Shown one piece after another: positions 47,575 through 64,000 of a stretch of DNA of 64,000 nt. The stretch is from Hysterium pulicare CBS 123377 (taxonomy: Eukaryota; Ascomycota; Dothideomycetes; Hysteriales; Hysteriaceae): the NCBI GenBank assembly GCA_000467715.1, contig AJFK01000215.1, positions 1-64,000 on the forward strand. Reading direction: 5' to 3'. The notes under the pieces are model-generated. The model worked only from the letters and a program-made list of their open reading frames with translations, had not been told where the DNA came from and made no database searches. The position numbers and the translations under genes were made by a program. Every line of letters starts with the position of its first letter. Position 1 is the first letter of the stretch.

Positions 47575-49253
47575 TCCTTCCCATGGGCTTTTGAGTTCTT
47601 GGTTCCTCATCAAGTGTGCTTGCTCGTAGTAACTCTGATTTTAACAGTCTTCACAAGGATTTGACCTTGGCAAAGGCTTCAGAATATGTGAGCGTTCTCA
47701 GAGGAAATCTAGAAAGAAGCACAATAAGCGTTTTTACTCTAATAGGTCGAAAGACGGTCGAGGTTGCGGGGTCACGACTTCACGCCTATCTTATCTTTCA
47801 AACTTCAAGAAGTCCATACAGTTTTGCCTGGATGTCGCGGCTCGACTTACGGCTAACTAACAGGATGATCTGCAGTATGCATCCACGTTGGGCGCGTGAC
47901 CAGCCACTTCTTCGTTCGACAAGGAGAGGCAGGTGTCATTGGCTTCATCGTTTGTTAGAATAATGGGCCGGGCCTTTAGTGTACTGGTGTGGAAGAACGA
48001 ACGACGTGATGGAGGGGCGGAAAACCTTTCGAACAAGGAGCTAGGAAAATGTTCCGAGCAACAGAACTACCGATCTCAAAACCAAGATACGCAATATTAA
48101 ACATATTGCGACGTACCTAGTATCCCCAGAGGCTTTAGGTATAGAGGCAAGGGATAGCTGCATAAAGTGCATCTGACAAAGAATAGCTGGCGAGCTGTAA
48201 GACAGACGCCGCGAAGGATGCAGCATTCCGAATGCATCTGAGAAGCATGATGCGGTGTGCAGTACGGCCCAGAAATGATGGCAGAAGCCTATTCGCTGCC
48301 GTGGATATCCGCCTAGATAAAATGAGGCATATTGTTCAGGGTTTCCTTGCGCTGTACAAATGAATAAGAAGGCTAAAAAAGGTGGGCGAAGGCCTTAATT
48401 GGCCCCACGATGACTGTTTGTTTGCACTGCGCCTGTGAATTGAGCCCAGCAAGAAGACTGCGAAGTCCGTGAGAATAGCGCGGTGGAGAAATACGACGAT
48501 GGTTTCTCAGACGGCGCCACATTGGAACTGTCGCAAGCCGGCAACACAATGGAAAAGAGCATGAAATCCATTGTGGATGACTGTAGCAAAGATGCTGCTT
48601 TCGTCTTCCTTTGATGCTTTGAAACGGGTGACCCCTACGGTCGGAGCCTCTTTCGGTGCTGTGCTTGCAGTGAGGATGGCTGCGAATGGCTAAGCTCGGG
48701 ATCGACAGCACATGAGTGGAGTGATGGCTAGGTAGGCAATCTGAATGTGTGCCGAGCTACAGGAAAAGCCGGAGTTTTGCATCTTGTGAAGTGTGTGTCC
48801 TGCTGTCGGCCTCCAGCTTGTTTCGCGTCGCAACTCTGGAAATAACCTTATAACCTTATCTGGCGCGCACTAGCAGTAGACAGCACGAAACTCACCACCG
48901 CCGTTGGATGAAGCCCTGTTTGGCTTTGGCTGACATCGATTGGCGACCAGTTTAAGGGGCCGAGCAACTGTCCCATGGTCCCCCGCCGTGCCATCATCTT
49001 TGACTCGAGTAACATGCACTGGCAGGTGCCGTCGCTGTAGCCTTTCGCTTGTTTAGGTTGGCGTGCCCAGCTTGGCTTCAGAGCCTTTCGACTCTCACTA
49101 CTCTCCTCCACAACACCAACCCCAAGACTCCCCCCCGATCCCCTCAATCTACGCTCGCTGATCCCAGGACCCCGTTTCTCCAGTCTGGCTCGTCTTGTGA
49201 AATCACATCGAGCTGGCCCTGGGAGACTGTCCGCCGTCTAACACGGCCCTCTG
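47575..49253. other. intergenic, acrB upstream region
   Basis: 1.7 kb. ORFs at 47616-47963, 48373-48711 and 48848-49147 have no recognisable motif. The last 200 bp before 49254 are pyrimidine-rich with CTCTCC and CAACACC words, typical of a fungal promoter/leader. Confidence 0.45.
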
Positions 49254-52248
49254 ATGCCACCGAAGGGCAAGAGGAACGCGAACCTGCACGACAAAAGGCA
49301 TGAGAATGGCCTCGCGGCTCCCGGAAAGCGCATTCAGAAGCAAAAGTCCAATCCCGCCCTCAACGGACACGCCAATGGAAATCCTGATCCTCCGACGCCG
49401 CCGCTGCCTTCAGATGTAGCCCAGCATATGACGTTCAAGCCGGCCACGCCAGATTCTACTCATGGAATGTCGGCACAAGCGAACATGGCCGGCCACATAC
49501 CAGGGAGACCCGTTGGAGAAAGAGCGAGAGCAGTTTCGGAAGTCTCTCTCGATGGGTTGGAGGCGTGTCGTTATGACAAAACCAACGGCTCACTCGACCG
49601 CGCTCTACCGAGTACTCCTCGTAGGACCGATGCCAACGGCAACAAGGTTGCACCGGCCTACAATGGAAATATGCTAACTGTAGCTACGACCATTCTCACG
49701 TCCTGTCCTCTGCGGGACGTTCTCGCAATCCTCATTATCCTGCTTCAGCTACCCCCTACCGTGCTTACCGTAGTACAATTCCTTTTCGCAACACTCACAT
49801 TTGTCCCACCTCAAACTGGGACATCCCTCTCCGCCCTCTCTGCCCTGCCGTCGTTGACCGACATCTTCCAAGGTTCCGGCGGTACGCCTTCCCTCTTCAC
49901 CATCGTTTTCGCCGATGTCTTCATTCTTATACTCTGGCTCCTGCTATGGGTTCCTGTACAAAACTTTTTCTTGGACCTTGCTCAGGCTGTCATTGCTATA
50001 GCACTTGGAGGAGCTGCGGCCGGGAAAAGTGGAACGACAAATAGTGTCTTTCTATGCTTCGTCATCATTCTTTCCTCCCATCTCTTCCGATTCCGGCCTC
50101 TCCGGCAACATATAGTTCACTTTCTGTGGCAAGGGCTCGCCCGGGGAGGCCTTGATTTTTTAACGAGCCCACCAAGCATACCAACGTATCAAGAAAATTT
50201 CTCTACACCACATGGGTGGCCCAGGAGTTTACTGGGTATACATATTCTCGCGCAAGGTGTCGTGCGCATCATTCGGCGTTCTCTTTCAAGACGAGAGGCA
50301 TCTCAGTCTATGCCAACCAGCAAACGGTCCGACCCCGAAGCTGCCGTTCATCACCAGTTACCACGACTCAACTCCGTCAATATTGACTCGAATCTGGATG
50401 TAATCAGTAGTTCGAGTACAGACGGTCGTCCGCCCGGGCCTTCGCCTGCGACAGCTAACTTCAAAGAAAAGGGAATGACGAGTAGGAAGAAGAGGAAACA
50501 GGCGACTCATGTTCGGAGTCAGCAGCCGTTCTGGGCTGCACTTGCTAGTACAAAAGTTACAGTTTTGAAAGAGATGGAGCATAGCCGAGCGGCGAATGAT
50601 GCCGGGGAGGCTAACGCAAAAGATGCAAATCACATTGGAAACGCCGTTTGGAGATCAGATGATGACCGAGTTTGGATCTCGGAAGTAGGTCCCACTGACA
50701 TATCTTTTCGTGTCAGTTTGTATGGAGGGGGTGATTATGATGTGGACTCTGTGGAGGATCAAGTTGAAAATACCGGATCCGGTATCGACAAGTCAAAGCC
50801 ATTCTACCTGCGCGTCAACGGGGCAGATTGGAGTTCCACTAGGATTCGCCAAAGCAATTCGCACGGTTACTTGGGAGAGGAGGGAACGGGCATGTGGACA
50901 GGAGAGATTTTTGGTCTCACGGCCCTGTCGAACTACTATTGCGAATTCGTCAGGACTGACGATCATGAGATCTTCTATTCTGCCAGCCTTATTACCTCGG
51001 CTGCCCCCAGTGCGGAACTAGGTAAGCATAGCATCATACATATACTTCATATCAAACTTACAAGGAGCCTCAGCTTCTGTTGCTTCTCCGTCAGCCCACC
51101 AGACTTTACGACCTTCGTCGCCAGCCACTACTTTGAAAAACTCGATTGCTGCCGCCGATCAGAAACTTCAAGACCATCGTAATCGACTTAAGCGGAATCG
51201 GAAGGATCACAAGACCGCAATAACTGCTATTAAGAAAGAGTTGGATACGCTAAGCAACCGCCTTTCCAACGCTGGAGGAAGTGATGAACGCCAACGTCAA
51301 CGAGCTCTCCAGTTCACCCAGAATATTCGCCAAGCTGATGATGCTACTGCTGATTTCGCACTTCAGTTAGACTCGCTGGGAGATATTCCAGAGGATGAGG
51401 TTGAAGAAGCTGCTGCCATGAAGAGCAAATGGAGAAAGGAACGAGATCATCAAACCGCTGTCAATAACGAGTTCGAGAATGCCAAATCCGAAGCCGACCG
51501 CCAATTAGCCAGCATCCAATCCGATATTGCGTCTGCTATCCAAAAGCGGGAACGTCTCCAACAACGCCAGACTAGGTTGAACGAACAGCATGAACGTCTG
51601 ATCGCTGCCAACAATGAAGGTCTCTCTGCCAAAAGCAGAAAGCAACAAACTCGCCTCAGTCTAGTCTCGGAGCGGATGAACATTGAGAATCAATACCGGA
51701 GCAATATCAACGGCTACGAGCGCCGTGCCACCGAGCATGCTCTCGCAACTTCTCAGATCAATCAGACGATTCAACATTTCGAAGCTCTGCTTCTCCAGCA
51801 ATCTCAGCAGCACCATTCTGTTCCCACCACTCCTGAAGGTCTCCTTCCGGGAGCCGCCTCTGCTTCCAATGGCATGGCACCCTTCACAGCCTTTCAGTTC
51901 CCCTCTCTCACAGCTCAAGTCAACATCAGCACGCCACCCTCGCTTCGCGGCCGCGGTCGCTCTTCCTCAATGCTCTCGAACGTCTCCGGCTTCACGGACG
52001 CCTTCGACGACCCCGTCTCACCCTCCGCCCCGATCGCGAACAATCCATTCAACTCGTACGCGGGTGCACACCTTGTCAATGGGAGAAAAGGGAGCAATGG
52101 CAGCGGCAGCGCTGGAAGCAGTGGGACCAGCTCGGGCAGTTCAAGTCAGCGGGATCCAATGAGTCCAGTTCCGGGTCCTAAGGCTATGATGATCAGGAGT
52201 CCTACGAGTGGAAGTGCGGGTCTCGGCAGTCCGGTCGGAAGTAGGTAG
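49254..52248 (+). CDS. acrB: ubiquitination network signalling protein AcrB
   Basis: Model: exons 49254-51021 and 51065-52248, 983 aa; 43-nt intron, donor GTAAGC, acceptor TACAAG, codon G|GA. The first 145 residues are polar. Hydrophobic helices follow: about residues 145-185 (RDVLAILIILLQLPPTVLTV, then VQFLFATLTFVP), 220-240 (FTIVFADVFILILWLLLWVP) and 245-262 (LAQAVIAIALGGAAAG). A basic KKRKQ stretch and a beta-rich block (VWISEVGPTDISFRVSLYGG, FYLRVNGADWSS) come next, then a long coiled coil (about 600-830) and a Ser/Gly-rich tail. In Aspergillus, AcrB works with CreD in a ubiquitin network that affects carbon source use and drug resistance. It borders the tandem family island. Confidence 0.9.
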
Positions 52249-52771
52249 CGGTAGGCAGACAGGTGGGAGGATATCTTGGTAGCCCCAATGTGATTTTGCT
52301 TTCTTTTGGGTCAAATATCTCTCTTCATTCTTTGTCATGGTCATGTGATGCGTGAAGATACGTGTGCTGACAGCCAGATTGTTGCGATACCGAAGTAATC
52401 ATTGGTGAGTAGAAAAATTGTCACTTATTTCTAGACAGGATTCCGATTTAGTTGCTGATGTGGTGTGTGAAAAAAGTTTTTTCGCATTACATATCACTAG
52501 CTGCTCAGCGTACGCCAATAGTACTTAGGTATGATCCGTTGCACCCTTTGAGGTATATCCCTTTCCTTTTCCCTTAAGATCATACTACTTCTCACCCATT
52601 GCTTTCAAGGTTCATACGTATCCACCCTCATCCTACGGATTGACTTTGATTCTTGCGCTCGTATGTAGCACCAGGAGAAACAAACCCTCCACTCTGTTTC
52701 TTGCGATCGTAGGTAGCACCAGGCGAGACGTACCCTTTCTCACGTCAACAAAGTTCCCAGCGAGCGCGCCA
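52249..52771. other. intergenic between acrB and family unit A, with a 31-bp direct repeat
   Basis: 523 bp. A roughly 31-bp sequence (TCTTGCGNTCGTANGTAGCA...) occurs at 52651 and again at 52699, 48 bp apart, with about five differences. Otherwise only convergent 3' flanks. Confidence 0.5.
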
Positions 52772-53148
52772 TCACAGAATCTCAAAAAAAAAACCCCAGA
52801 GCGACTTACCCAACTTTTTATACATATCTCTCATCAGACTATCCGCAAACATCTCCATGGCATCAACCAAAGAAGATGATCGATCCCCAAAGCATAGCAA
52901 TCTCCCTTTCGGATCATCTAGCTGCACGTGGGCGACGAGAAAGATCACGTATTCTCCGTCTTCCGTCCCGGAGAGAAATTGGAGTTTGGCTGCGTCGCCG
53001 CCGACGCGCGCGCCGTACAGCTCCATGGCGTTGGCTGTTGCCGTTAGTCGTGTTTTAGAGCTTGGGAGGGGAGGGAAAGCGGCTTACGCATTGCGAATTT
53101 CTTTAGCTTCTCGAAGCGGTCCATGTCCTCGTTTGTGATACCGGACAT
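52772..53148 (-). CDS. tandem family unit A
   Basis: Model: exons 53088-53148 and 52772-53034, 107 aa; 53-nt intron with GTAAGC donor and GACTAAC branch site, phase 1 (C|CC). Exon 1 encodes MSGITNEDMDRFEKLKKFAM. Exon 2 opens with NAMELYG, then a strand ending EYVIFLVAHVQL, a loop, and the helix SSSLVDAMEMFADSLMRDMYKKL. The stop lies after KSLWGFFFEIL; a GTAAGT right after KKL could instead begin a further intron as in units F and H. No known domain is recognised and no signal peptide is present. Nearest the conserved acrB gene, this is the left end of the array. Confidence 0.72.
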
Positions 53149-53872
53149 TGTGGTCTTCGCGGTCGTTGAGCGAGACAAGAGGTGAGTCTTTCACAGACGC
53201 GGGTCAAGTGAAAGTGGGCCGACTTTTGCTGCACCAAATGGCGAGTATTGAGCTGCTTGACTGTTAGACGGGAAGGAAGTTGCTGATGTTCACAGGGCTT
53301 TGCTTGTACGAGATCGGGAATTGATCTGGGAGAGTCTGTTGATTAAGTTGATTGGTGTTCGTCAGTTCGGGCTTTGGGATCATGCTAATGGGGGTAGGAG
53401 TTGGTCAATATCGCACAGTTGATGAGCTTTAGAGGCTTTTGCCAGAGCTGTCGAACAGCGAGTTGATTGTGGTGGGACTGTTGTTTACTTCGCGGTGTTG
53501 GAAGTATGTGGGCATGGATGGCGGCTTCCTAAAGGAGCACTACCTAAGAGACCCTTCATCCATAGGGCAACTCCCACTTTAGTGGATGAACTCATCCGGC
53601 GTAAGCTCGTATCTAGAGCGACTTCAACACTGGGGGCAATGATGTTCTAGGTCATAGCGAGCAGGGTCAGTACGATCCCCAGAATGTTTTCATTCGAAGC
53701 CACTATCTAATACGCGTTGAGAAATGAGCACTCCCTCTGCCTTGGATCCAGGTATCGTCGCGAACCATCTCCTCTCAGTCCCCTATATTCTCAAATTCCA
53801 TTTGTCTGTGCCGCTCTATGATAAAGATGACGCGGAGGTCGCGTGTTGTCTGGCAAGAGAATATTAGCAGTG
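53149..53872. other. spacer between family units A and B
   Basis: 724 bp without an ORF longer than 60 codons on either strand. It must hold the unit A promoter. No relic of the NA-x-LYG core was found here. Confidence 0.5.
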
Positions 53873-54283
53873 TTATGCAACACACACAGCAGCAGCAATG
53901 GCTGCCAACTCACTCATCAAAGCCCGTATATCTATCTCCAACATCCTCATCAAAGCATCCATAGCCTCTTCCAGGCTTGCCTCCCATCCACCTCTTCGCT
54001 GAAGGCGGCCATGAGCAGTCGGAGTCGACATACGTTGGACGAGGTACGCTTGGTGGCCAGGCATAGGGCTACCATCATGGGCCGTTGTCATGTCGTGTCC
54101 GTAGCCGGTAAGAATGTCCCATTGGCTGCTGTCGCCATAGAGAGCTCTGGCGTTTGCTGTCACCAAGCGTGTTAGTTTGAGAGTGTTTCCTAGTCGGCGT
54201 GGACGAACTGGGTGAATCAACTTACAGATGATGAGGTATTTGTAGTTCTGGATGTCAGAAGGTTGCATCGCCATTTTTTTCAT
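53873..54283 (-). CDS. tandem family unit B
   Basis: Model: exons 54226-54283 and 53873-54156, 113 aa; intron donor GTAAGT, acceptor GTGACAG, junction codon T|CA. Possible starts are Met at 54283, 54274 or 54268; the first gives a 58-nt exon closest to the family norm. Exon 1 ends IQNYKYLII. Exon 2 has NARALYGD, a WDIL strand, HQAYLVQR, then ASLEEAMDALMRMLEIDIRALM and a hydrophobic Ala-rich tail. The intergenic loop between strands is longer than in other units. Function unknown. Confidence 0.7.
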   Translation of the reverse strand: MKKMAMQPSDIQNYKYLIICKLIHPVRPRRLGNTLKLTRLVTANARALYGDSSQWDILTGYGHDMTTAHDGSPMPGHQAYLVQRMSTPTAHGRLQRRGGWEASLEEAMDALMRMLEIDIRALMSELAAIAAAVCVA

Positions 54284-54625
54284 GGATATTGTAGTAGAAG
54301 CTGGGAGTAGAAGGTTGGGATAGAAGTTGGGGTAGAAGTTGGGCGTATATTTGCTTGCTGTATCCTGCTTCAGAAGAATGTTGGTACGATGTGGAAATCC
54401 GACGACAGGTTTGTTTGACAATGGTCAAGAAAAGGGAAGTTTCGAAGGACACGTTCTTGTCAAGAAGTGTGTCGACTGCCGTGCAACCACACTCAAAAGA
54501 GTGAGTGACGCATTGTGCGTAGAAGGTCTACCGGCATCCATAAATAAACACATTGGAAAGAGGCAAGTGAGAGAAAACAGTACGTGTAACTTCAGTCCTG
54601 GACTCTAACATATTTCTCAGACGTT
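54284..54625. other. spacer between family units B and C
   Basis: 342 bp. Upstream of B, the sequence has three TGGGATAGAAGTTGGGGTAGAAGT-like GAAGTTGGG words (54300-54345), a short imperfect tandem repeat. No gene. Confidence 0.4.
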
Positions 54626-55113
54626 CTAGGGTATCATGATCAAAGCATCAACATCGACCATCCATCCTTCCTCCCCGCCGCTCATACACGTCCTGCTATA
54701 TGCTTGGATCGGAACGTACTCATCTCCTCCAACTCGTCTTGACCGTTCCTCGTTCGTTAGCGACGCTCTATTCGTCTCGCAGAGATAGGACTCACCGTAC
54801 GCTTCCGCAACGTCCTTTTGCGTCAATTCCAGCAAGCGCGCCATAGCCTCGTTCAGCGTGAGAGCTCTTCCACTTTCCTGCAGCATCCTTCGTTGCTTCC
54901 ATGGTCACACATCAGTAAGACACGGTATGTGTTGCGAGAAGTCATGATCTCGTAATGTTTGGAGGTGCCGTAGAAGGCTCTTGCGTTGACTAGTGAGTAT
55001 CTTTAGTTCTTCATTCAAGAGGGAGCACTGTTGAGAAGGTATGTCAATGTACCTATGATCATCTTTTCCAGTTGTTTGAAGTGCTCTATCTCTTCAGCGG
55101 TTATACGGTACAT
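54626..55113 (-). pseudogene. tandem family unit C, reading frame disrupted
   Basis: Exon 1 (55053-55113, 61 nt) encodes MYRITAEEIEHFKQLEKMII, and a 63-nt intron in phase 1 (G|TC) leads to NARAFYG, HYEIMTS and YRVLLM. The frame then ends at 54853, while the expected terminal helix ALTLNEAMARLLELTQKDV sits in another frame, up to a possible GTGAGT donor at 54795. No intron of normal size joins the two parts. So the unit is probably broken by a small indel, or has an unusual short intron. In other respects it is one of the best matches to the family pattern (identical exon 1 length to A and D). Confidence 0.6.
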
Positions 55114-56339
55114 CGTGATGTTCTCTTGTAATACGGATCCACGATATTCTTAGATTGGTAACGAAGTTGAGAAGGACGGTGCGAATTGATGGTTGGTTAC
55201 AAAGGAGATGCTGAACAGGTTTGTTTCCAAGAAGGAGTTCATCTACAAACAACGTAAGTGTTATCTATTACATGTTTGCTTGACTGCCAATCAAAAATAA
55301 GCCTTACATATGCTAATGAGTGTCCTAATGCGGTTTACAGGGCAATGTCTCATGATATAGTGGCTTGACTGCAAGAGCAACGTCCATGCTAACATGCGGA
55401 TAGGGGCCTGCATAGGTACTTTGCATGCCGATATTAGAACCACCTCTCATACCGCCGTTCGCACCATGTTCGTATTGAGGTCTCCGCTAGTGCTTCTCGC
55501 CCCTTCAAGTTCAGAATATACACATCCGAAGCCTTACACCATCAGCTATTAGTACCCATCTTCATATCCGGCCGTAAGGCTCACCGACCCTACCCATACC
55601 TGTCTTGTGCACTGTCCTAAGCAGTGCCTTTATGGATCCACTAAGAGTAGCTGTCGGATGGTAGCGAAGAGTGAAAGGTGGGTGTCAACAAAGGAGCTGT
55701 CTTCCATGCCTAAATCTAGGCTCTATGTTTACGGAGGTCATTTGAGGTGTGGGAAGCGAGATTTTTGGCGCCCGTATGCCTATAAGCACATAGCCCAGCT
55801 TCATTCCTCCCCATTTAGTTTCAGGTTGAGAAACAGCTTCTCTTTTTATATTAACTACTACTTTGCTTTTTCTAGTGCTAATAATTTACAAGACTCTTTG
55901 ATATAAAGTATCTTTGGGCTTTGGGAAATTAGATGAACGGCGCCTGCAGCGTGGTAGGTACATTTCCTTTGCTTATTGCTCTATTTCTAAATTCAGGTAG
56001 ATAAGAAAGATACTTAGTTTTTATTCATCTTCTATTTGAATTCTCTTCTACCTGTCTGGCTATAAGACTCTGCATGAGAAGCACACTCGAGCTCTGTGTT
56101 AGAGCCAAATGGTGCTTGTAGCCCCATGGTACATGTCTCTTGCCTTCTTCTCGGTTTTTAATGTGAAGTGGGTGGGAGAACCGGACTTAGCAAGCGCAAA
56201 GGCTTACCAGATAGGTCCGTACCCCTCCACTTCAATTGACATGGCAGCGCTAACGTCCTATCAACCCGCTCAAGTCTCCGTACGAAGTAAGAAACCACCA
56301 CCTACGTCTCGTTGATCAACTGACCCTCAGTCTTTGTAC
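55114..56339. other. spacer between family units C and D
   Basis: 1.2 kb, partly AT-rich (around 55840-55900). ORFs 55607-55906 and 56109-56315 (plus) have no motif. No NA-x-LYG relic was found. It is the widest gap in the array and could hide a strongly decayed unit. Confidence 0.4.
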
Positions 56340-56769
56340 CTACACCATAAGCATAAGAATCAACAGTCCAGTCTTCGCAAGGAAGAAGAACCTACGCAAT
56401 ACCGTATTAGCATCCTGAAACAACCCCTGAAGCAACGGCCGCATCGCCGACTCAAGATTTGCTCCATTACTCCTCCGCAACAACGTGCCGACCAGGCAAA
56501 GGGGTTGACGACCGGGAGGACCATCCTGTGTAAATCGAGCTTGCCAGCTATACCCGATTAGATTTACCGTGCGGAGTGAGCCCAGAAGACCGATGACGAT
56601 GTCGTATTTATCGTATTCGCTATCGATGTAGAGGGCTTTTGCGTTTGCTGGAGCAACATATCAATACAGAGGCACGGAGACGCTATTTATTCACGGATAT
56701 GCACGTACAATAGGCAAGGTCTTTCATGGTTTTGTATGTGTCCATCTCTTCCTTGGTAATGGATGCCAT
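56340..56769 (-). CDS. tandem family unit D
   Basis: Model: exons 56709-56769 and 56340-56647, 122 aa; 61-nt first exon, 61-nt intron (GTACGT...CTCCAG), junction T|CA. Exon 1: MASITKEEMDTYKTMKDLAY, very close to the unit A start (MSGITNEDM). Exon 2: NAKALYID, KYDIVIGL, a strand TVNLIGYSWQ, a Pro/Gly loop, and the helix ANLESAMRPLLQGLFQDANTVL, then a hydrophobic tail (FFFLAKTGLLILMLMV) not shared by other units and possibly beyond the real coding end. Function unknown. Confidence 0.72.
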
Positions 56770-57317
56770 GAGTTTTCGTTTGACTAAGGCATGCGTGGTA
56801 TGAGTGAGATGGCCAATGGTGTTTGGCACTGCTTGCTCTTACCTTGATGTAAGGGGATTTAATAATAATTGTGAGGGGGTGAGTTGTGTCTATCGCTGGG
56901 ACGCTACTCAGGCAGGAAAACTCTGGTGGCAAGTGGTTGTTGTTATAGCGCAGGTACTTTACGAGAGTACATTCACTCGTGATGTTGCTATAGGAGCCAA
57001 GCTAATCTAGATCTGCAGGAGATGGCTTGGTGTCACGGTCTTTCATATACATCCATCCGCCCCCTTCTATAATTAAAACACTAGAGGTTCTCGTTCCAGT
57101 AGAATCCGCTTCGCTTTCGGTCATTGACAATGTCTCGAAACAGACTTCCACGAGACTGAATAGAGGTGGAATGACCAGTCTTCTAGGTCGGCAAGGACTG
57201 ATCCCCTTGAAACTTCTCCCTAGACCGCTTCTCTTCTACAAGACAAGTCAGCTTGGTCATCTAACCTACTCAATCTGAGAAGATTTCACGTACCCATCGT
57301 TGCTCCTGCTTCGCTAC
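56770..57317. other. spacer between family units D and E
   Basis: 548 bp. It holds the unit D promoter and perhaps lost 3' parts of unit E. ORFs 56804-57010 and 57027-57278 (plus) are antisense and have no motif. Confidence 0.4.
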
Positions 57318-57582
57318 TCAACCACAGCGCCATAGTACCCAGCGCTTGGTGGCGAAGCCCAGTATCTGACCTTCTCCATTCTCATAGGCGACCAGGTATA
57401 CCTGATGCTCTTGATCGTCGGTGCCTGTGTGACACTGGACGATATCGTATTCGTGGTGTCCGCCGTAGAGTACTTTCGCATTTGCTGGAGGAGTGTTAAT
57501 ATAGGAGACTGAACGATCGCTGATTAACCCACCTAGCTAGCATTCTGTCTTTGAGAGGAATGTCCTCTGGGTGGTAATCCAT
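57318..57582 (-). pseudogene. tandem family unit E, incomplete
   Basis: Exon 1 candidate 57533-57582 encodes MDYHPEDIPLKDRMLA, and exon 2 (57318-57484) has the clearest core in the array: NAKVLYGG, YDIVQC, HQVYLVAYENG. But exon 1 ends in phase 2 while the core needs phase 1, and the frame stops before any AMxxLL helix. So it is either a broken copy or one whose true exons I cannot resolve. The core is well kept, so loss must be recent or the model wrong. Confidence 0.55.
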
Positions 57583-58464
57583 TCTGGGTTTGAGGTTGGA
57601 TCCGGTCAGTGGGAGTTTCAGAGGATGGGAGCTGGGGCACTGTTCTTAAAGCCCGAAGGCAGAACTCGATTGAATGTACTGGCATTGTATAGTCGTTTAG
57701 CTCACAAACAGAGTTTGATTTATCTATATTGGCAATCTTGATTGCCAGTAGTCTCAATTATCTTTCTTTCCATCCTTGTCAAGCAACAACATTTCTCTGA
57801 GCTTGCCATATCAAACTTACCTCTCTCAGCAGCTCTCCCTCCACCGAATGAACTTCTTCTAGATTCCCTTCTACGCGGAGAATCTCTGCTACACCCAAGC
57901 AACTCTATCAGCCGCAAGCAATCCGTCAAGTCCATTGAAACCAACCCGGAAAAGAGCCTTCTAGCAAAAGCTCCAATCTCCTCCAGCAGGATCCCCACAA
58001 GTTGTCTTTCCATAACCATGAGGTCACCCCAACACCTTCTTAGCCTGCAACTCTCCTTCTTCGCACCTGATACCAGTGATTTCGCGCAATAGCCTACAAG
58101 ATCTACCTCCCAGTGCATCAAAATCCGAAGAAGCCCGTCGCTACGTGCTAACCCACGGGAGAAGGGGTTCACGCTGGGGGCGAATGCCCTTCGAATCTCA
58201 CAATGATCATGGAATGCGACAAAAAGGAAAGATGTTGATTCTTGATATCGTCATGTACAAACTATTTGTTGGGAAGCCACCATGGGCTTTACAGATTTGA
58301 TTGGAACATTCCCGGAAATACAACTCCTTATAGGAACCCATGTCTATCCAGAAGAATTTAGCAGAGACATGATCTGCTATAGTGCCACTCGAAATTTCCA
58401 CTATACACTGCTTTGTTGACCATGGGTTCTGCTTTCAGCCCGTAATGAGATACATAAGTGTCGA
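57583..58464. other. spacer between family units E and F with an unassigned ORF
   Basis: 882 bp. A 150-codon minus frame (57720-58172) and a 116-codon plus frame (57742-58092) overlap antisense. The minus one has an amphipathic run (MERQLVGILLEEIGAFARRL) that could be a fragment of a larger helical protein, but no domain is identified and neither can be preferred. Confidence 0.35.
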
Positions 58465-59480
58465 CTAAGCTGGATAACCCATTGTATAGCTGCTTCGTCG
58501 CTGGGCAAAATGTGCAAGAGGATCGGTCATTGTCGGGGGACGAAGGGGGACGTTGGATGCCTGGGACCGATCTTCTGCAGTCGTACCTGGGCGAAGTGTC
58601 CTCCCAGGAGCAGGCGAAAGGAACGTAGCCGTGCGCGAAGGTTGGGGTCGAGCAGAGCCTGAAGAAGTCATACCACTAGCGCTCAGGCCTCCACGCGATG
58701 ATGGACCCAGTTTTGCAGTGCTGCTGATGGGCTTATGGCTTAAGTGAGCCTTCGCTAGCTTTCGGAGGTCATCCATTCCGACACGGTGGCGAGGATAGTC
58801 TGCTGGAGGCATCGTGCTACCGCCAGCGAAGGAGCGAGCATCATCCCGTTTCATTTCGGGTCCCTTGGCATCCTTGGACTTCTTGCCTTTCTTCTCGATC
58901 TTCTGCTCATTCTCCACCTCATTGTTCTCACCGGCGCCGGCGGCCTTCTCAGCTCCCTCCTTGTACATCTTGTGTGTAGTATTGCATATGGTTGAGTGAT
59001 CCGGTGCCTTCAAATCCTTCATCCAATTGCCATCCCCGGTGATCTTGTCTCCCTCCTGGATGTTGTTTTGGCCTTTAAAGACATAAATCAGTATGTTGCT
59101 AGTTCAATAGCTATAAAACAAAAAGGGGGATCCTACACAAAGCCGCGCACTGATGACTTTCAAGACCGACAAGAAGAGATTTCATCGCAGGGAGAACTGC
59201 ATTTGCTTCACTCTTACGTCTGACCTCACCCACACAGCCGAGCATAGGGACCTCCTGGCGCAGGTAGCTGAGCAAGTAGACCTGGTGGACTACCGGAGTG
59301 CTATGAGCATCCTTAAGGGCCACGACGTCGTAGTCGAAATTCGCGCCGTAAGTCATTTTGGCGAGTGCTTGAATGAGTGTTAGAGACGAAATCATGTGAA
59401 GAGAACGTGTGCTTACACAGGATTTGCGCTTTCAGGTTGTCGAATGCGGACATTTCCGCCATGGAGCCAAAGATAGGCAT
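58465..59480 (-). CDS. tandem family unit F with long basic Ser/Pro-rich extension
   Basis: Model: exons 59417-59480, 59137-59367 and 58465-59072, 300 aa; both introns in phase 1 (T|CA and T|GC). Exon 1: MPIFGSMAEMSAFDNLKAQIL. Exon 2 is the core: KMTYGANFDYDVVAL, then VVHQVYLLSYLRQE and the helix NAVLPAMKSLLVGLES. Exon 3 adds about 200 residues found in no other unit: IQEGDKITGDGNW, a Lys/Glu helix (EKKGKKSKDAKGPEMKRDD), an HRVGMDDLRKLAKAH patch and a Ser/Arg/Pro tail rich in SRTATF-like sites. The extension may be nuclear or signalling-related; this is inference. Same three-exon layout as unit H. Confidence 0.75.
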
Positions 59481-59599
59481 GTTGTTCAGTGAGAGAAGTG
59501 ATCGGTGTAGGTTCGGATGGCGTATATGTCAAGGCAAAGCGGCGTTGTATAAGGTGAGAGAGAACCGATGGTATAATGAAGATGCAATGTACGATATTC

Positions 59600-59709
59600 C
59601 CACCAGGCGACGGTGAAGTAGAGGTGAATAGTCTTGGCGCGAAGGCGTTTGCAGTACGAGCAAGACCGGTGAGATTAATTACTTGCTTGAACTCCTTCTC
59701 TGAAATCAT
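59600..59709 (-). pseudogene. tandem family unit G, short relic
   Basis: A frame starting MISEKEFKQVINL matches the exon 1 helix of other units (compare unit C ITAEEIEHFKQL). Only about 20 nt later comes ANAFAPRLF and then NIVHC, echoing NA-x-LYG and the YDIVxC strand. There is no proper intron between the parts and no terminal helix; the sequence runs on in frame without family features. It is best read as a decayed copy. Chance resemblance cannot be excluded. Confidence 0.3.
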
Positions 59710-60098
59710 GAAGTGCTTACTTGAGAATTCTTAAAGCAATGCTCGTTCAAGGAAGCTGCCGGAGCACTTCTATTCACCTAAAGTCGTCTGAAATCGCCCC
59801 CATGACTCTGCTTGTCAATGATACTTAGCCTGGTCACCGCTATTATCCAATGTTTAGGAGAGGTTGCACACTCTAGCACTTTTGATTCAAGTCTCAGAGA
59901 GTCTCTTATTCTGACGATGGTATGCCGGGCTACTTCTACCTTAACAAGGAGCCCATATCATTGATCCGAATGTACTGCCGAACTGACCCAGGAATGGCAC
60001 CATAGACATCACATCGTTATTGAAGACTCAGTATTTTCCGACCAACTCCGTCGTTACCACACTGTCCACCCTGACATCTGCAAGGAAGTCTAGGACTA
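59710..60098. other. spacer between relic G and unit H
   Basis: 389 bp, no ORF, repeat or motif recognised. 3' flank of unit H. Confidence 0.45.
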
Positions 60099-60840
60099 TT
60101 ATTGCTCCCCTAGAGGATAGATTGGCTCGTACTCCATTCCCGGGCAGAGACGTCGAAGGTGCGCAATCTGGCTGTTGATCTTAGCCACGTAAGCCGCCTT
60201 CTCGGCTTCCCTACGAATGGGATCCTGCTCGTCGCTGTAGAAGGGACGGACCAGGAAAGGACGAATCCCACTGCAGCGCGCGTTCTTCGGCATCTCCGTT
60301 AAATTGGATTTCCCGCCGTCGTTTGTCGCATGCTGAGATTTTTCCATGGATTCAGAAGCAGAGTCGGCACCTTCAGCGCTATCGTTGGCCGGTGTTGGGA
60401 TTGGCATTGCCTTTTTTCCGTTTTCTTCTGTGCCTGAACCACTAAGTTAGCTCGCTTCTAGGTCCAGACTACTTGCAAGTACCTACAAATTTTCTTGTAG
60501 ACATGTTTCTGCGTCTTCTCCAAAAGATTCTCCATAGCAAGATTGACGGTTAGGGCCTCATCGCTCTTCTCCAGCACTGGTACCTTTGGCGCGCTGACTT
60601 CGCAGACATAGCTGGTCAAGCAGACCTGAAAGGTAGACCCCTTGGAATAGCAGGTCACGATGTCGTACTTGGCATTGCCATAGAGCTTCGTAGCATTCGC
60701 TGAGTATTGAATTAATGGGATTAGCCTTCACTGCCCAAGTTTTTGACAGTGAGACAAGGAGGAATAGGGGACTCACAAATGATCATCTTCTTTAGTCCCT
60801 CGAAGATCTGGATCATTTTGACGGTGATGTTCGTCATCAT
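60099..60840 (-). CDS. tandem family unit H with short C-terminal extension
   Basis: Model: exons 60777-60840, 60487-60699 and 60099-60433, 203 aa; both introns phase 1 (T|CG and T|GC). Using the second of two tandem Met codons gives the family's 61-nt exon 1. Exon 1: TVKMIQIFEGLKKMII. Exon 2: NATKLYGN, KYDIVTCYSK, TFQVCLTSYVCEV, and helix LTVNLAMENLLEKTQKHVYKK. Exon 3: a Ser/Ala/Glu linker, then GIRPFLVRPFYSDEQDP, a helix RREAEKAAYVAKINSQIAHLRRL and CPGMEYEPIYP. The exon 3 extension differs from that of F although intron position and phase agree. Right end of the array. Confidence 0.75.
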
Positions 60841-61405: not shown

Positions 61406-62194
61406 TCAAAGACCTTTTGACTCCAGGTATTTCGTAATCGTATCTTTATGGGAGCCCTGCAGAAGGAGAAGTTAGCGAGCCTGTTAAAGCGCAGTTCCAT
61501 GTAGAAACCGGAAGTTGCAACTGACCTTGACAACAAGATTTCCAGTCAGCGGGTTGATTATAATATCTTTCTTCCGCTGAACCTGCAGCAGCTCCTTCAG
61601 TTCATCCCTCAAGGTCTGCGCATCCCCCGTAATCTTCCTGACTAATGTCTGATGGAGATTTCCACCTCGCTTGAAGTCAGTATAGATAGGCAAATTGTTC
61701 GTGACCGTGCGTGCGACATGGAATTTTAGCTTTTCTGGCACTGGCGCTGGAGTCTCTGGTACCGGGGCCACCTCTTTCGGGGAAGCACGCAGTTTCACGC
61801 TTCTGGAAGGTTTGAAGGGTTTTCGGGGGCGTTTGGATGGTAGTCGCGGTTTTGGCGCTGGTGCTTGGGCGCTATCAGCATCTGTAGACGCTTCTGCTGC
61901 GGCGATGTCGGCGGCACGAGAAGCTTCTTTCGGGGTTTGAGGGATAGGAGATTTCGATATAGAGGCGGAGGAAGAGGCGGCAGCGGGTTGTGGAACGGTG
62001 GCGCTTATTGTTGAAGTTATAGATGCTAGATAGCAATTAGAAAGAGTTAACTTCAAGGTAAATTGGCTTGGACAAGACGTACATTCGACTCGTAGTCTTG
62101 ATGCGGTGGAAAAGCGGAGGAGTTGGCGGAAGGTTGACGGTCTAGGAGGGCCCAAAGGCCGCAGAAATGGGAGAATTGGCTGCGAGAGAGCCAT
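61406..62194 (-). CDS. IMG2: mitochondrial large ribosomal subunit protein mL49 (IMG2)
   Basis: Model: exons 62083-62194, 61526-62025 and 61406-61456, 220 aa. Start MALSQPILPFLRPLG with an Arg-rich mitochondrial presequence. The 57-nt first intron (GTACGT...CTATCTAG) is a multiple of three and was left open in the simple frame. An Ala/Pro/Lys-rich linker leads to the family domain: KFHVARTVTNNLPIYTDFKRGGNLHQ, then LVRKITGDAQTLRDELKELL, IINPLTGNLVVKG, and the last exon supplies GSHKDTITKYLESKGL, the usual end. It is a structural protein of the mitochondrial large ribosomal subunit. The longer frame beginning at 62401 is upstream noise. Divergent from eIF3e with 269 bp between starts. Confidence 0.93.
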
Positions 62195-62463
62195 TGGGTC
62201 TTGGATAACACGCAAACGCCCCGTGAACAATAGATATCCCGGAGATACGTTTAGAGACTGGGGTGGTGTTGATGGATGGAAGTCACAAGTGACGATGGCC
62301 GGTCCAACACCACAAAAATTTAGCGAGCCAATTCCCGGCGGCGCGCACAGAACCTCATTGTTCACTTCAACAACAACAACCCCCACCAAAGAACTTTCCA
62401 CACATCCACAACTGCGACAGCTCCTCTTCGCGCGATCGGCTCTGCTGCGAAAAGAACTACATT

Positions 62464-63906
62464 ATGGCGGAAAATGGCACAGACGGTGTCTCGGACATCG
62501 TAGAACAATACAACCTCCTCCCAAAACTGATTCCCAACCTCGACCGACACCTAATCTACCCTCTTCTGAACTTCAGCCCAGACGAAGACAGTGAGCTGCC
62601 AGTCTCTCAGAGGAAGCTCCTACTCGAACTGCTCAAACCCACCAATATGACCGATTTCGTGGGCCAACTGGACCAAGACATTCGCGGTCTTGATGAGATG
62701 CCTGAGGAGTACCAGAAGAAGCGGGCGAATGTTCTGAAGCAGCGGGATCAGTTGGAGCAGGATACAGAGAAGATATTAGGGTTGTTGGAGGATGAACAGG
62801 TGTTATCGAATTTGCGGAGTGACAAGACGCAGAATTTTGCGTACCTGAAGGAGAACCATGGTGTCACGGTTGAGATGGTGAACCAGCTGTATGAGTTCGG
62901 AAACTTTCAGTATAGCTGTGGTGTGTATCCGCATGCAGCAGAGCTCTTGTATCGATTCAGGATATTGGTAAGTTTTTAATCGGGTGTTTGTTGAGCACGG
63001 CGTCTGCTGAGATGTATGGAACGGATACTGATGTTCAACATAGTCTTCAGACAACGACAAAGTAGCCGAAGCCACCTGGGGTAAACTTGCCTCCGAAATC
63101 CTCTCCGTAAACTGGGAGGCCGCCATGGAAGAGATTAAAAAGCTGCAAGAATCAATCGACACGCGTCTCTTCGCCAATCCTCTCGCGCAACTCCAGCACC
63201 GCACTTGGCTGATCCACTGGTCGCTATTCCCTTTCTTCAACTACGACGGCGCAAAGGATACTCTCACAGACATGTTCTTTTCCCCGACCTACATCAACAC
63301 AATCCAAACGAACTGCCCCTGGATCTTGCGATACTTAGCAGCTGCGGTCATTACGAACAGGAACAAGGCTCGCAATTCGAACCAGTATCAGAAGCAACTC
63401 AAGGATTTGGTTAGGATAGTTAGGCAGGAAGGGTATGAATACCGAGACCCAGTGACCGACTTCATCAAAGCGCTCTACATCGATTTCGACTTCGAGGAGG
63501 CGCAGAAGAAACTTTCAGAAACAGAAGAGATACTCAAAAATGATTTCTTCCTACTTGGAACCGCGGATGTCTTCGTGGACTCGGCTAGACATTTGATTTC
63601 GGAATCATACTGCAAGATCCATCAGAGAATCGACATCAAGTATGTTCCCTTCCACTTCCTACTATCAGTGATATGTGCTAATTATGATATAGCGATCTTT
63701 CAACCCGTCTCGGCCTCTCCCAAGATGAAGGTGAGAAATGGATCGTCAACCTCATCCGGGATACCCGTGTCGACGCCAAAATCGACTACCAAGCCGGCAC
63801 AGTTGTCATGAACCATCCCCCGCAATCCGTCTACCAGCAAGTGATCGAACGAACCAAAGGCGGCTTTTTCCGAACGCAGGTGCTCAGTGCTGCTGTAGCA
63901 AAGTGA
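62464..63906 (+). CDS. int6: translation initiation factor eIF3 subunit e (Int6)
   Basis: Model: exons 62464-62967, 63044-63639 and 63693-63906, 437 aa, normal family length. The N-terminal helical repeats show [20 protein letters not shown], then [15 protein letters not shown], and [29 protein letters not shown]. Exon 2 continues with [35 protein letters not shown] and [16 protein letters not shown]. The PCI domain at the end has [17 protein letters not shown]-like sequence ([14 protein letters not shown]), [14 protein letters not shown] and [31 protein letters not shown], the winged-helix part. eIF3e sits in the eIF3 PCI/MPN core on the 40S ribosome. All junctions canonical (codon AA|C for the last). 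Confidence 0.96.
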
Positions 63907-64000
63907 GCTTTCCATCGTGATGGATTCGTTTATGCAGCGTTAGATCCCGACTACGAGGGGCTAGGGAGCAGGCGTGGGGATGCGGGTATCATGTGAAGGG
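63907..64000. other. 3' flank of eIF3e to window end
   Basis: 94 bp downstream of the eIF3e stop. No feature seen. Confidence 0.5.

Follow-up and report, generated by a model that had tools for sequence, protein, structure and literature searches.

In Hysterium pulicare CBS 123377 (Ascomycota, Dothideomycetes), we analysed a window of 64,000 nucleotides, bases 1–64000 of the 68,310-base contig AJFK01000215.1 (C170; assembly of 37.2 Mb in 596 contigs). It holds an island of small minus-strand genes, units A to F and H, and as judged from their sequences the units are a real tandem family that is absent from the libraries searched. In unit F, sequence similarity shows that the tail derives from the two stretches flanking the MIF4G domain of the translation factor eIF4G of the same genome. 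We think it fairly probable that these genes are an old tandem family encoding small proteins, in which the plan of exons 1 and 2 stays constant and the third exon changes freely, the tail of F having come from eIF4G.

The relationship between the units can be measured with sequence profiles. When a profile of four intact units was used to score the fifth, A, B, D, F and H obtained 24.9, 24.8, 29.6, 32.9 and 48.0 bits, respectively, and the profile of all five gave the pieces of the broken units C and E 35.0 and 28.1 bits. Each of these seven tests was accompanied by 2000 shuffles, the highest of which reached 10.0 bits. The units therefore find each other above chance (24.8–48.0 bits versus at most 10.0), which is the check that the initial annotation of this island had proposed. 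The window was also scanned in six frames with the five-unit profile, a test in which A, B, D, F and H score by construction and C and E lie outside the profile. E scored 27.5 bits and C appeared as three fragments (10.9, 13.9 and 14.8 bits), compared with 6.1 bits for any other match in the window at best and 5.0 for the best match in reversed sequence. The initial annotation had counted eight units, three of them broken. C and E are broken, while the third, unit G, gave no match up to E 20 in the same scan and was dropped.

The intact units share only 16–34% of their residues in pairwise protein comparisons, as low as had been claimed. Across 895 codon pairs the mismatch at codon positions 1, 2 and 3 is 0.59, 0.47 and 0.64 (random expectation 0.73), in an alignment guided by the proteins, which in itself favours a low mismatch at the second position. 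None of the 21 pairs of 300-nt upstream flanks was more similar than its own shuffles, two being tied, so the duplications look old. The island holds homologous tandem units in intact as well as broken copies, as is typical of a birth-and-death family.

The units also agree in gene plan. The spliced models of A, B, D, F and H (Table 1) translate without internal stops, in line with their description as intact-looking. Exon 1 measures 61, 58, 61, 64 and 64 nt in these five units, 61 nt in the broken unit C, and 61 nt in H if counted from its second Met. Intron 1 is in phase 1 in six units (A, B, C, D, F and H); the codon it splits after the first base is TCA in B, D and F and TCG in H. Exon lengths, phase and split codons are all as the initial annotation had them. 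Its account did not extend to a second intron, to third exons or to the eIF4G-derived tail of F, which are additions of the present analysis. The five intact units also have their second intron in phase 1, and exon 2, which carries the core, is thus a symmetric 1-1 exon, to which a third exon could be joined whenever its start matches. The 11 introns examined span 49–77 nt, and a CTRAY branch motif lies 6–40 nt before the acceptor in seven of them, as against 25 of the 244 YAG sites of the region; the intron-2 donors of D, F and H start with GTAGG. No such branch site precedes the acceptor of intron 2 in unit A, and that acceptor is uncertain. For unit E, no phase-1 join to an upstream ATG was found on inspection by eye.

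The third exon differs from unit to unit. In A it runs to nt 52628, beyond the span first given for the island, and encodes a tail that is mostly a 46-nt direct repeat (52643–52736, 83% identical, spacing 48 nt; YVSPGATY.../FVSPGATY...). B and D have ends of 12–19 residues, H has a 110-residue tail with no further match in the genome, and F has an unmatched stretch followed by the pieces of eIF4G.

These pieces came to light in a first DNA search, where 162 bases of F exon 3 were 80% identical to contig C353 of the same genome. The C353 locus is eIF4G, a 1274-aa open frame with Pfam matches to MIF4G at residues 890–1128 and to the eIF_4G1 region, which we take to be eIF4E-binding, at 623–694. 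Positions 178–212, 209–399, 405–440 and 441–602 of F exon 3 correspond to eIF4G residues 1127–1138, 1172–1235, 708–719 and 745–797. When the two sequences were compared directly, the long blocks were 80% identical over 162 nt (E 3e-37) and 76% over 195 nt (E 2e-33), and the short ones 86% over 36 nt (E 7e-7) and 76% over 38 nt (the first block, E 0.055 if taken alone). All four blocks keep the eIF4G frame, and the gaps within both halves are whole codons; by simple arithmetic, random gap lengths would leave the frame unchanged across the four gaps, two of them large and two of one codon, in about 1 of 81 cases. F differs from eIF4G in that the order is swapped, the stretch after MIF4G coming before the stretch between the eIF_4G1 region and MIF4G, and an unrelated domain is attached. 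The eIF_4G1 region is left out, as is the MIF4G match except for its last two residues, and the F protein has no Pfam match, MIF4G included. The F tail matched no genome place other than eIF4G, and a protein comparison of the rest of the island with eIF4G gave nothing below E 4. A single step could explain the swapped order if a stretch of eIF4G had been joined head to tail, in a tandem copy or a circle, and nothing beyond the vicinity of that junction had been kept; two separate insertions are a possible alternative.

A comparison of the F tail with eIF4G over 139 codons gave dS 0.40, dN 0.22 and a ratio of 0.55 (bootstrap 0.34–0.88). The blocks differ in dN/dS, from a very low value in one of 11 codons to a value of about 1 in the last one (53 codons). 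With the three MIF4G proteins that the F tail matched in a protein search (see below) used to polarise the post-MIF4G block, 14 sites are derived in F and 2 in the eIF4G of the same genome. Because F keeps the older residue at those two sites, the copy split from its own eIF4G line before these changes, and because the derived sites number 14 versus 2, it has since changed faster in protein. The keeping of the frame suggests that the F tail is translated; the tail changes fast and may be nearly free of constraint.

Some of the observations weigh against the explanation we favour. A dN/dS of 0.55 would be expected if one branch were constrained and the other free. In simulations that placed 35–76 random changes in the 423 eIF4G-derived nucleotides, the frame stayed free of stops with a probability of 0.17–0.43, so that the lack of stops says little by itself. 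The branch motif is lacking in four of the 11 introns (A2, C1, D1 and D2), the splicing of all units is read from sequence alone, and the fold considered below comes from a single model, covering one exon of unit F. An alternative view is that the island is a decaying relic, with units drifting without function and the eIF4G pieces of F being passive debris that is in frame by chance. Two broken units, a tail whose dN/dS lies near the free-branch value, a stop-free frame expected by luck in one sixth to two fifths of cases, and the fact that F is the changed partner at 14 of 16 polarised sites all agree with this view. We nevertheless consider it unlikely, since five units retain full frames and both splice junctions in spite of their 16–34% identity, second codon positions differ least among these five, branch sites are present in most introns, and the four eIF4G blocks share one frame.

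How far the family extends is a related question. A consensus of the shared domain, searched against the same genome, returned six of the seven island units (F, H, B, D, A and E), C being missing from the rows. It also gave two weak matches, to C591 (E 0.88) and to the first exon of unit A (E 1.2). As single queries against this genome, D and the start of C found only themselves, H found itself and a weak place on C507, and F found itself and eIF4G. Nothing exceeded the cut-off when the units were compared with Pfam and NCBIfam. No relative of the shared domain appeared among about 5.8 billion proteins (E up to 10) in searches that need shared 5-residue words; the F protein matched three MIF4G-bearing proteins only, by way of its tail. 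The five-unit profile found no relative among 1907 candidate proteins, nor did the domain consensus among 8. Since exact 5-residue words are required, orthologues as diverged as the units are from each other would rarely be detectable. We regard it as evenly balanced whether the family is lineage-specific or whether related species hold orthologues too diverged for these searches: the word requirement, set beside the 16–34% identity within one genome, speaks for hidden orthologues, whereas the absence of any match up to E 10 except the three MIF4G proteins speaks against them. Of the lineage-specific birth-and-death family originally proposed, the tandem arrangement, the strong divergence and the broken copies all hold, and the occurrence at one place as far as this genome was searched and the lack of a curated-family match above cut-off fit it too; the word-limited protein searches test the lineage restriction weakly. 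Lineage-specific tandem families with birth and death are a general class in fungi, and the island resembles them in its tandem and broken copies, strong divergence, conserved introns and lack of a known domain. It differs in that its third exons look unrelated to each other by eye and one of them is a recognisable piece of another gene.

The structural model of F exon 2, which is of moderate confidence (pLDDT 74.5, pTM 0.57), predicts an alpha-beta-beta-beta-alpha order; that of H exon 2 (pLDDT 58.7) is too poor for the fold to be judged. The structural list for the F model is dominated by double-stranded RNA-binding domains (dsRBDs), with which some other proteins tie, and Foldseek gave no significant match for it. 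The predicted order of elements and the overall shape would allow the units to be read as strongly diverged dsRBDs that bind dsRNA or, more probably, proteins. We hold this to be rather doubtful. The Pfam dsRBD profile (PF00035) matches none of four unit proteins or five domain sequences, and hhalign scores of the units against dsRBDs are at shuffle level. In dsRBDs, helix 2 begins with the lysines of a KKxAK motif; in alignments read by eye, this motif is absent from A, B, D, F and H, where acidic, small or hydrophobic residues directly precede the conserved AM, and an RR stands 9–11 places upstream of AM in B, D and F only. Two dsRBD matches were reported in the genome, mL44 and a 175-codon open frame (L030 1186–1713, minus strand, G000:C250), the latter below threshold with 18.3 bits (cut-off 23).

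The initial annotation had likened the island to immunity or allorecognition genes, for which we find no specific support, no effector domain having been matched. A separate reading would make F an integrated decoy, with the eIF4G pieces kept as bait because eIF4G is attacked or exploited, for instance by a virus protein. Integrated decoys are known from plant immune receptors, and F resembles them as a host-factor piece, here free of MIF4G and the eIF4E-binding region, fused to a member of a fast-diverging tandem family. It differs from them in that no receptor domains were matched in F, and its tail has been moving away from the eIF4G sequence instead of following it. We consider the decoy very improbable. 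A broader conflict locus related to translation or dsRNA, with dsRBD-like sensors or adaptors and F as the member carrying the scrambled bait, seems to us just as far-fetched.

The island is bordered on one side by mL49, identified by its Pfam Img2 match, and eIF3e, as the initial annotation had it. On the other side the first open frame (646 aa) has no Pfam match; the name acrB comes from the initial annotation and our own presumption and is unconfirmed by Pfam. As a side observation, eIF3e adjoins an island whose unit F holds eIF4G pieces, and human eIF4F is reported to contact eIF3e (PMC10948362); the neighbourhood is probably a coincidence. The window also contains an open frame of 176 codons that lies between E and F (57723–58250, minus strand) and has no second match in the genome, and a 12–13-nt unit tandemly repeated at 54293–54347, just upstream of the start of unit B.

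Table 1. Positions in the window of the island units and the genes that flank them.
Feature	Position	Strand	Remarks
Unit A, 130 aa	52628..53148; exons 53148-53088, 53034-52810, 52734-52628	-	Splice model
Unit B, 119 aa	53791..54283; exons 54283-54226, 54156-53914, 53849-53791	-	Splice model
Unit C, broken	54629..55113	-	Exon 1 (61 nt) and phase-1 intron kept; exon-2 core divided over two reading frames
Unit D, 116 aa	56302..56769; exons 56769-56709, 56647-56396, 56339-56302	-	Splice model
Unit E, broken	57318..57582	-	Exon-2 start recognisable, early stop
Unit F, 300 aa	58465..59480; exons 59480-59417, 59367-59137, 59072-58465	-	Shared domain and eIF4G-derived tail
eIF4G-derived part of F exon 3	58469..58893	-	eIF4G open frame residues 1127-1138, 1172-1235, then 708-719, 745-797
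Unit H, 203 aa	60099..60840; exons 60840-60777, 60699-60487, 60433-60099	-	Splice model
mL49 (Img2) open frame	61487..62461	-	Pfam Img2 match; flanks island
eIF3e gene	62464..64000, running off the window	+	Flanks island; stretch 63044-63808 (one exon) compared; start by eye
Other flank, presumed acrB	49242..52248	+	First open frame without Pfam match

Returning to the old tandem family with a replaceable third exon, exon 1 would form a short helix and the symmetric exon 2 would bear the conserved core, presumably a small intracellular module that binds protein or RNA. The range of partners would then be set by the fast-changing core together with the tail, and units could continue to be born and lost because core and tail can drift or be replaced. 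The most likely biochemical effect of the F tail, if it has any, would be to bind what normally meets the flexible linkers of eIF4G. Our best guess is that each unit encodes a small binding protein whose core plan is constant and whose tail can be replaced.

The capture of scrambled eIF4G pieces is the part that should surprise specialists. It gives a clear case of tail exon replacement in a fast-diverging family, with two linkers of a housekeeping gene taken up in swapped order and the frame kept. Should F prove decoy-like, integrated decoys would extend beyond plants and to a translation factor, and if the dsRBD-like core is real, fungi would contain diverged proteins of the dsRBD fold that are invisible to sequence searches.
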